Position numbers and translations under genes: made by a program. From positions 1 to 38,282 of the forward strand of contig JACQPY010000010.1 of assembly GCA_016207275.1 (NCBI GenBank): DNA of 38,282 nucleotides, in the 5' to 3' direction. The notes beneath the pieces are model-generated. The model did no database searches, was not told the origin of the DNA, and saw only the letters and a program-made list of their open reading frames with translations. Every line of letters begins with the position of its first letter. Position 1 is the stretch's first letter. Below are positions 14 to 1,519 of this stretch, in pieces. The stretch comes from Candidatus Kerfeldbacteria bacterium (lineage in GTDB: Bacteria > Patescibacteriota > Patescibacteriia > SBBC01).

Positions 14-47
14 AGTCGTATAAAGGTGGGTTAGCTTTTAAAAGACT
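14..47. repeat. hairpin insertion after the tRNA-Tyr D-arm
   Basis: AGTC (14-17) pairs with GACT (44-47), and the AT-rich stretch 19-26 pairs with 35-42 with small mismatches, leaving a short loop. It lies between the D-loop-like sequence and the anticodon stem, where a tRNA has only one linking base. Confidence 0.4.
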
Positions 48-55
48 CCTGACTG

Positions 56-108
56 CCCCGCCACCATCTAAAGATTTTAGAGAAGGCGGGGTGCCGCCTT
101 CGGCGGCA
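56..108. repeat. 53-nt double-hairpin insertion in the tRNA-Tyr anticodon
   Basis: CCCCGCC (56-62) pairs with GGCGGGG (85-91), enclosing TCTAAA/TTTAGA (67-72/76-81). It is followed at once by TGCCGCC-TTC-GGCGGCA (92-108). Removing 56-108 restores a perfect CTGTAAA anticodon loop on a 5-bp stem. The site, between anticodon bases 34 and 35, is where some bacterial group I introns sit, but 53 nt is far too short for a group I intron. Confidence 0.7.
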
Positions 109-141
109 TAAATCAGGTGGCCACCGGCCTTCGAAGGTTCG

Positions 142-180
142 TCAGGTCATTCGACCTGACGCCCCGTCGCATGACGGGGC
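142..180. repeat. 39-nt double-hairpin insertion in the tRNA-Tyr T-loop
   Basis: Two adjacent perfect hairpins: TCAGGTC-ATTC-GACCTGA (142-159) and GCCCCGTC-GCAT-GACGGGGC (161-180). They split GGTTCG from GAATC, so they fall inside the T-loop near positions 57/58. The first hairpin recurs at 603-620, also inside a T-loop. Confidence 0.7.
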
Positions 181-223
181 GAATCTCGGAGCGACGCTGA
201 GCGTAGTCGAGCAGTTGCGAAGA

Positions 224-274
224 TCCCGCGCCCGAGGACGCCGAGCTTTGTCGAGAGGGACGAGAGGTGCGGGA
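224..274. repeat. TCCCGC...GCGGGA inverted repeat
   Basis: TCCCGCGCC (224-232) pairs over 9 bp, with one G-U, with GGTGCGGGA (266-274). It has the same outer ends as the inverted repeats around tRNA-Thr and tRNA-Pro. Upstream, 186-212 contains the imperfect CGACGCT...AGCGTAGTCG palindrome. Confidence 0.5.
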
Positions 275-403
275 CTACTCCACTTACCAGTTGCAAAATA
301 TCGAAATAAATAGTACAATAAGTTTTCCCCGTGAGCCGCGGCTCCTCCACGTAAGCTTGCCGTAAAGTCCCGCACCATGAGCCGGTGTAGCTCAGCGGCA
401 GAG

Positions 404-510
404 TCCCGCACCATCCTGGGCCAGCGTAGCTCAGGGGTAGAGCAGCGGTTTTGTAAACCGCAGGTCGTGGGTTCAAATCCCTCCGCTGGCTCCACCAGGA
501 TGGTGCGGGA
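404..510. repeat. 16-bp perfect inverted repeat flanking tRNA-Thr
   Basis: TCCCGCACCATCCTGG (404-419) and its exact reverse complement (495-510) directly abut the tRNA-Thr gene, so in RNA they extend its acceptor stem with TCCA as a bulge. TCCCGCACCAT is also present as a direct repeat at 368-378. Confidence 0.85.
420..494 (+). tRNA. tRNA-Thr(TGT)
   Basis: Complete cloverleaf: acceptor 420-426/484-490 (7 bp), D-stem GCTC/GAGC, anticodon stem GCGGT/ACCGC with loop TTTGTAA (anticodon TGT, 452-454), T-loop TTCAAAT (472-478) on a stem with one T-T mismatch, discriminator T491, and an encoded CCA (492-494). It decodes ACA/ACG-type threonine codons. It lies inside an inverted repeat within a broken tRNA-like shell, and just upstream of rpmG as in many bacterial tRNA-Thr/tRNA-Trp clusters. 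Confidence 0.93.
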
Positions 511-524
511 TAAACAGCAGGTCG

Positions 525-542
525 TCCCGCCGAATGGCGGGA
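525..542. repeat. GAAT-loop hairpin replacing a T-arm
   Basis: TCCCGCC-GAAT-GGCGGGA is a perfect 7-bp hairpin between the variable-loop sequence AGGTCG and an acceptor 3' strand. The segment 519-542 matches 1417-1440 at 23 of 24 bases, where it occupies the same place in another tRNA-like shell. Confidence 0.65.
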
Positions 543-578
543 TTTCCGGCTCCACCGGCAAGATTTTGGGAACTTCGG

Positions 579-662
579 GATGAAGCGGTGGTTGGGGGTT
601 CATCAGGTCATTCGACCTGATGCCCGATCGGAATGATCGGGCAAATCCGACCATCGGCTCCA
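579..662 (+). pseudogene. tRNA 3' half with T-loop split by two hairpins
   Basis: A T-arm GTTGGGGGTTC (591-601) and AAATCCGAC (643-651) is followed by CATCGGC, T and CCA (652-662), a standard tRNA 3' end. The T-loop is split by 602-642: ATCAGGTC-ATTC-GACCTGAT (602-621) and GCCCGATC-GGAAT-GATCGGGC (622-642). The acceptor strand matches the 5' strand at 381-387, so this may be the true 3' end of that shell, or the remains of another gene. I cannot identify an anticodon. Confidence 0.45.
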
Positions 663-928: not shown

Positions 929-1099
929 TCCAGCGCCAGTTCGCTAGAATACATTTTAATAAGCATTGCGCTTTGGTGGTGGGGGATTAGTTCAGTGGTA
1001 GAACGCAGGTCTCCAAAACCTGACACGGGGGTTCGATTCCCTCATCCCCTGCCACGGGAGCACAACGCGCCAGAACGCATTGAGCGAACTGGTGCTGGA
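929..1099. repeat. 17-bp inverted repeat around tRNA-Trp
   Basis: TCCAGCGCCAGTTCGCT (929-945) pairs along its full length (one G-U) with AGCGAACTGGTGCTGGA (1083-1099). Unlike the Thr and Pro cases it does not abut the tRNA: 35 nt and 28 nt separate it from the gene. Confidence 0.75.
981..1054 (+). tRNA. tRNA-Trp(CCA)
   Basis: Acceptor GGGGGAT/ATCCCCT (981-987/1044-1050, first pair G-U), D-stem GTTC/GAAC, anticodon stem CAGGT/ACCTG with loop CTCCAAA (anticodon CCA, 1013-1015), T-arm with loop TTCGATT (1032-1038), discriminator G1051 typical of tRNA-Trp, and encoded CCA (1052-1054). It follows rpmG, the usual place ahead of secE/nusG in many bacteria, although those genes are not here. Confidence 0.95.
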
Positions 1100-1201
1100 C
1101 GAATCTCGGGCCAACAAAGTGAGCGAAGATTTCGCACACGACCATCGGGAGTGATGGGGGACTAGTGCCCCGCCATCGGTTCATGGTCTCCTTGCAAGGG
1201 C

Positions 1202-1275
1202 GCGGGGTAAACTCAGTTGGTAGCGCCCCGTAGAACGGGGCTCAGCGCACGGCTTGTCCCGTGAAACATAACCTA
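1202..1275 (+). other. tRNA-like 5' fragment with internal hairpin
   Basis: GCGGGGT (1202-1208) followed by ACTCAGTTGGTAG resembles an acceptor strand and D-arm. GCCCCGT-AGA-ACGGGGC (about 1225-1241) then interrupts, and CACGG...CCGTG (1248-1263) may be an anticodon stem. ATCCCGC at 1487-1493 could pair with 1202-1208 with one G-U. This would be a third enclosing layer around the Pro shell, but the reading is tentative. Confidence 0.25.
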
Positions 1276-1318
1276 CACGTGGCTCGTTCTGTCGGGGATT
1301 AGCGCAGTTGGTAGCGCG

Positions 1319-1416
1319 TCCCGCCCCAGGTCGGGGTATAGCGCAGTTGGTAGCGCGCACGGTTCGGGTCCGTGAGGTCCCGGGTTCGAGTCCCGGTACC
1401 CCGACCTGGGGCGGGA
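1319..1416. repeat. 20-bp perfect stem enclosing tRNA-Pro
   Basis: TCCCGCCCCAGGT (1319-1331) is the exact reverse complement of 1404-1416. It continues without a break into the tRNA acceptor stem (1332-1338/1397-1403), giving 20 contiguous base pairs. The TCCCGC...GCGGGA ends match those around tRNA-Thr. Confidence 0.85.
1332..1404 (+). tRNA. tRNA-Pro(CGG)
   Basis: Perfect cloverleaf: acceptor CGGGGTA/TACCCCG, D-stem GCGC/GCGC, anticodon stem CACGG/CCGTG with loop TTCGGGT (anticodon CGG, 1365-1367), T-stem CCGGG/CCCGG with loop TTCGAGT, discriminator A1404. The next bases are CCT, not CCA, because they belong to the flanking inverted repeat. The 3' CCA would have to be added by the CCA-adding enzyme, unlike the Thr and Trp genes nearby, which encode it. 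Confidence 0.93.
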
Positions 1417-1519
1417 AGGTCGCCCCGCCGAATGGCGGGACATCCCCGACAGAGCGAACAGACGAAATCGGGACCGTCAGGAGGCCATCCCGCATTCCTC
1501 GAAACACCATCCATTATTC

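Follow-up and report, generated by a model that had tools for sequence, protein, structure and literature searches.

Intact tRNA genes on hairpin stems within interrupted tRNA genes of the same isotype in Patescibacteria, and their probable origin by serial insertion

Rickettsia palindromic elements, which are known mainly from protein genes, are small palindromes lying within the genes of a reduced bacterium, and the REP sequences associated with RAYT/Y1 (IS200/IS605-like) transposases are GC-rich hairpins found in extragenic DNA. Genomic islands that use tRNA genes enter the target gene and restore it (PMC4383910), and the tRNA fragments left by such islands have also been described (PMC9897764). 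In archaea, more than one intron may occur in a tRNA, and tRNA introns are capable of transposition and related to split tRNAs (reviewed in PMC10714607). Our searches of the open-access literature turned up no account of same-isotype tRNA genes nested in one another, the arrangement that we report here.

The window analyzed, a stretch of 38,282 nucleotides from a Candidatus Kerfeldbacteria bacterium (contig JACQPY010000010.1, positions 1 to 38,282; genome G000), starts with a tRNA cluster in the order Tyr, Thr, rpmG, Trp and Pro. ARAGORN and Rfam identify three intact tRNAs in it, namely Thr(TGT) at 420-494, Trp(CCA) at 981-1054 and Pro(CGG) at 1332-1406, and all three sit on an inverted repeat with fragments of a same-isotype tRNA alongside. 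The Thr locus (381-662) is composed of the following features:

381-403, forward strand: layer-1 tRNA-Thr shell, 5' part, comprising the acceptor 5' strand and D-arm (GCCGGTGTAGCTCAGCGGCAGAG), its last element being the D-stem 3' strand
404-419, forward strand: left arm of the perfect 16-bp Thr stem, touching the 5' end of tRNA-Thr
420-494, forward strand: intact inner tRNA-Thr(TGT), layer 0 (ARAGORN; Rfam tRNA, 70.7 bits), with TCCA encoded at 491-494
495-510, forward strand: right arm of the perfect 16-bp Thr stem, touching the CCA end of tRNA-Thr
511-524, forward strand: layer-1 Thr shell, 3' side of the anticodon (TGT) and variable region (TAAACAGCAGGTCG), matching the intact inner Thr of G003
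525-542, forward strand: plain hairpin TCCCGCC-GAAT-GGCGGGA, 7 bp, replacing the T-arm of the layer-1 Thr
543-554, forward strand: layer-1 Thr shell, acceptor 3' strand and TCCA, the end of the first shell
555-580, forward strand: right arm of an older Thr insert (..CAAGATTTTGGGAACTTCGGGA), with counterparts in the insert right arms of G003 and G001, and a diverged one in G042
581-600, forward strand: layer-2 (older) tRNA-Thr shell, 3' part as far as the T-loop
601-643, forward strand: two plain hairpins (601-622 and 621-643) within the T-loop of the layer-2 Thr
643-662, forward strand: layer-2 Thr shell, 3' end (AAATCCGACCATCGGCTCCA)

The preliminary description of this DNA had placed a tRNA-Thr with an encoded CCA on a perfect 16-bp inverted repeat, which ARAGORN, Rfam and the repeat itself (404-419/495-510) bear out, and no spacer separates the stem arms from the mature tRNA ends. 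It was also correct in that the outer Thr stops at its D-arm and resumes with the 3' side of a TGT anticodon arm (381-403 and from 511 on). The single shell that it drew over 381-662 stands as a broken outer Thr at 381-554, but 581-662 belongs to the 3' half of a second, older Thr shell. The RNA of 379-554 folds with -98.8 kcal/mol (z = -7.2 against shuffles).

The order of these layers is observed in relatives. In the sister genus, G003 has a perfect Thr(TGT) shell, interrupted at TTTTG^TAAA, with a different intact Thr(TGT) inside it. Layer 1 of the window matches the inner Thr of G003 and layer 2 its outer Thr, the latter match including the right arm CAAGATTTTG.GAACTTCGGGA that precedes TAAA/TGAA; the window genome has thus gone through one further round. 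Deeper nesting is seen in G006 (locus L132), where one Ala(CGC) is carried by a hairpin within the D-arm of a second, intact Ala(CGC) and this second copy is held in turn, on its own 16-bp stem, within the anticodon of yet another Ala, and in G041, where Thr copies of two types enclose each other by turns (A in B in A in B), an identical arm sequence occurring at two levels. This alternation, together with the identity of inner copy and shell in the Ile locus of G002 and a layer-1 3' half in G001 that is a chimera of two layers, indicates that layers recombine. In the Thr anticodon, inserts of similar appearance are shared by families f1, f24, f36 and f40. A two-hairpin insert is found in the layer-1 Thr D-arm in two different families (G042, locus L056, and G001, locus L033), the stem differing by a matched substitution (GATTCGC/GCGAATC versus GATCCGC/GCGGATC), and may represent either conserved structure or transfer.

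The remaining loci of the cluster are comparable:

25-289, forward strand: tRNA-Tyr(GTA) gene in pieces, at about 25-55, 109-141, 182-187 and 275-289, with hairpins splitting the anticodon at 34|35 and the T-loop
891-928, forward strand: tRNA-Trp shell, 5' part, stopping in the anticodon loop (..GGTCTCCAA)
929-945, forward strand: left arm of the Trp stem, 17 bp, 94%
981-1054, forward strand: intact inner tRNA-Trp(CCA) (ARAGORN, Rfam)
1083-1099, forward strand: right arm of the Trp stem, the Trp shell continuing at 1100 in the T-loop (CGAATC)
1201-1224, forward strand: older tRNA-Pro 5' fragment
1291-1318, forward strand: tRNA-Pro shell, 5' part, its acceptor complementary to 1441-1450
1319-1331, forward strand: left arm of the Pro stem, running into the inner acceptor stem (20-bp perfect repeat 1319-1338/1397-1416)
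1332-1406, forward strand: intact inner tRNA-Pro(CGG) (ARAGORN, Rfam)
1405-1416, forward strand: right arm of the Pro stem
1417-1450, forward strand: tRNA-Pro shell, 3' part, with AGGTCG, a hairpin (1423-1440) replacing the T-arm, and the acceptor 3' strand

A possible additional tRNA-like remnant (GAGGGGCGTAGTACTGGTCAGTTGGTTGGCGCGGCTGACC ... CACCTCGG) follows uppS at 2221-2340. GC-rich hairpins of any kind number 9 in the window against 3.6 expected, a count on which we base no strong claim.

To assess how widespread the arrangement is, a single procedure was applied to G000 (27 tRNAs) and to five further genomes, one sharing its genus, two its family and two its order: 250 bases on each side of every tRNA, with other tRNAs masked, were aligned to tRNAs of all amino acids, and scores of at least 14 were taken as strong. 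The isotype match is a plain observation, with 98 of 113 strong flank matches in the six genomes naming the amino acid of the tRNA that they flank (about 5% by chance). Since the control of diverse bacteria consisted of 4 tRNAs only, this agreement in amino acid is the real control. At least one same-amino-acid fragment flanks 77 of the 130 tRNAs in these genomes of the order, and complementary blocks of at least 9 bp between the 60-base flanks were found at 10/27 tRNAs of G000 and 13/35 of G007, compared with 0.6-2.5% in shuffles. In other families of the class, sampled mainly at a single locus, 16 of 56 tRNAs at this locus have same-amino-acid flanks, and the nested pattern is present in at least nine of these families, including in the interiors of long contigs. 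A Thr anticodon pattern was run over 381 genomes of the class, of which, the search being noisy where the DNA is AT-rich, we kept only matches enclosing a tRNA; a T-arm-to-T-arm pattern over the relatives was overly strict and of no use. Where the preliminary description had taken absence of the outer halves from close relatives as grounds for refutation, we found the opposite, as they occur throughout the order and recur across the class; the same distribution rules out an oddity of a single locus. One match to a viral contig was taken to be due to chance, the contig having no tRNA and, judging from translations, ORFs that are not Patescibacteria-like, and matches to phages showed only ordinary tRNA similarity.

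The geometry of insertion is likewise directly observed. The outer fragments end preferentially in three regions, around positions 20-25 (D-loop and D-stem 3' strand), 33-37 (anticodon loop) and 54-59 (T-loop). Many of the inserts are precise, and measured inserts span 30-196 bp, with plain hairpins of 30-63 bases, tRNA-bearing inserts of about 100-200, and no gene inside. Target-site duplications are rare: an 8-bp repeat GCCTCCCT resembling such a duplication surrounds a tRNA-bearing Asp insert (L015, around 1473-1600), and a plain hairpin in the Trp shell of G046 has GTCTC repeats. Inserts were then removed in silico by script from pieces picked by eye, with edges uncertain by one or two bases, and removal was clean in 8 of the 12 cases tried, ARAGORN calling a tRNA with unchanged anticodon: Ile(GAT) of G002, Thr(TGT) of G003, G046 and G264, Asp(GTC) and Asn(GTT) of G000, Tyr(GTA) of G001 and Ala(CGC) of G006. 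Of the remaining four, the Pro of G003 yielded an undetermined anticodon and three yielded no tRNA call. The Asn shell on contig C15 of G000 has a sister elsewhere in that genome (L071/L105, G000:C11:165470), a lone tRNA-Asn 3' half that has an adjacent hairpin but lacks the T-loop insert.

We propose, with a probability of roughly 0.64, that tRNA-bearing hairpins have been inserted serially into tRNA genes of the same isotype, and that the resulting shells then decay. Short, gene-free hairpins, whose loop is either short or a complete tRNA gene, would enter tRNA genes in the D-loop or D-stem 3' strand, at anticodon positions 34-37, or in the T-loop. Where a working tRNA gene has a single copy, a plain hairpin in it would be expected to be lethal, and working genes would mainly keep those inserts that carry, and presumably rescue function by, an intact tRNA of the same isotype. 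The inner copy would probably take over as the working one and the interrupted copy would become a shell, which could take plain hairpins at no cost, recombine with inner copies and decay; rounds of this kind repeated on the innermost copy would generate nested shells, the oldest being outermost. Plain hairpins are found mostly in shells, as such survivorship predicts, the D-loop of the G001 Tyr being the one exception seen. The copy might have arisen through single-strand transposition, through homing-like repair of a break from a sister copy, or through capture of foreign DNA. We raise as an idea a homing-like break at a tRNA loop that is repaired from a sister shell holding the insert, which would explain the same isotype, the same site and the repeated arms. 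Of the three readings offered by the preliminary description, a mobile element combined with decay by insertion fits best, and a maturation scaffold, though conceivable, is not needed.

The foremost alternative, which we regard as unlikely, is that these loci encode functional composite precursors with outer and inner cloverleaves folded jointly, from which the inner tRNA would be cut out and the stem-held outer halves joined in the manner of split or intron-containing tRNAs, or which would serve as processing scaffolds. In accord with it, the G046 unit folds into two complete cloverleaves, one placed in the anticodon of the other (z = -6.7), and eight shells are intact after insert removal. 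The recurrence of similar inserts at the same Thr site across families also speaks for it; inserts so shared are long-lived for junk, a point that, like the intactness of several shells, counts against the main reading and makes a functional or spliced role conceivable. Furthermore, tRNA-Tyr is seen only as interrupted genes in both members of the genus, the pieces at 25-289 being the sole tRNA-Tyr sequence found in G000 and the only tRNA-Tyr detected in G001 (L033, 776-892) having a plain hairpin in its D-loop. However, both assemblies are incomplete (that of G001 is 80% complete), Cys and Ile(GAT) are also missing from G000, and assembly gaps may account for the absences; missing isotypes were rejected as proof of splicing for G000 and G001, where other tRNAs are missing too. 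Many shells, moreover, have lost essential parts: the Thr shell of the window has neither a T-arm nor the 5' strand of the anticodon, and the Pro shells are missing the anticodon arm. Since nearly every isotype was seen as an intact copy in G007 (6 contigs), shells are not needed for decoding. Archaeal multi-intron, transposing and split tRNAs (Thermoproteales, Caldivirga) are similar in having several precise inserts in the D, anticodon and T regions and halves on complementary stems, but archaeal introns hold no tRNA, whereas the inserts here are bacterial and comprise a full same-isotype tRNA, visual inspection of the Thr, Asp and Ile junctions revealed no bulge-helix-bulge motif, and many shells are not restorable. 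A specific form of this idea, in which nested genes give one cloverleaf-in-cloverleaf transcript that sets the inner tRNA free and whose outer halves are, for at least some tRNAs, spliced back together independently of a group I intron, appears distinctly unlikely.

It is improbable that the loci are remnants of classical integrase islands, in which case an island would have split and restored the tRNA gene and then eroded, leaving the displaced fragments in place. Islander-type islands do target tRNA genes, break in loop regions, restore function through the insert and leave displaced fragments (PMC4383910; PMC9897764), and at many of our loci extra 3' halves lie downstream, with displaced 3' ends beside hairpins also found at a superoxide dismutase-like gene (L068). 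But such islands carry an integrase, span kilobases and leave one displaced fragment and no 5' half outside, whereas the inserts here are gene-free and about 0.1-0.2 kb (no integrase gene was found within the measured inserts of 30-196 bp), dozens of loci show one and the same form, and a whole inner tRNA, on a complementary stem touching its mature ends, is flanked by both retained halves and nested serially.

Still more doubtful is a tandem duplication of tRNA genes followed by insertion of REP-like palindromes and gene conversion, with nesting arising secondarily. The chimeric layers attest to recombination, and palindromic repeats were found outside tRNA genes too, one of them, a CYTG-CCCCG hairpin, directly after a Y1/RAYT-like gene (L064, 1615-2235, G000:C2); tandem duplication, however, yields copies side by side and not one copy in the loop of the other on a complementary stem. 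The hairpins resemble REP sequences in being GC-rich, in the short CYTG foot of one subset and in mostly duplication-free, precise insertion, but differ in lying inside tRNA genes with a tRNA as loop. Y1/RAYT genes are present in G000 (2), G003 and G007 and were not found in G002, G005, G006 or G008; as G002 and G006 nonetheless have nested tRNAs, the case for RAYT as the sole mover is weakened. Rickettsia palindromic elements carry no tRNA, and on the features tested the loci belong neither to the islands nor to the REP/RAYT systems, and probably not to the archaeal introns. An artefact of short-read metagenome assembly is barely credible, since, although several G000 contigs start near tRNA loci, nested loci lie deep within long contigs (857 kb in G007, 698 kb in G042 and 744 kb in G046) and layers are common to independently assembled genera.

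These comparisons suggest that serial insertion of tRNA-bearing hairpins is an undescribed kind of insertion, in which the disruption of a tRNA gene and the delivery of a substitute for it coincide. If this is right, an insertion system hits essential RNA genes and every accepted hit leaves a fossil record, from which a layered history of tRNA replacement can be read. tRNA finders may miss or misread genes in this lineage, and two questions become testable, namely which factor cleaves or copies the DNA of tRNA loops and whether these bacteria are capable of tRNA splicing.

The CYTG-CCCCG hairpins gave 20 matches against 2 in the control, and 11 of the 16 genuine examples read in G000 are in tRNA loci, many of them inside tRNA sequences; other hairpins (TCCCG..CGGGA) are without the CYTG foot. 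The tRNA pattern is also seen on a protein gene: at L068, around 1500 (G000:C6:9751), a gene whose product resembles an Fe/Mn superoxide dismutase C-terminus is followed downstream by two displaced, diverged copies of its 3' end (..WNVLKLIP* and ..WSVLKLLP*), and hairpins of the same kind interrupt both copies near a shared Trp codon pair.
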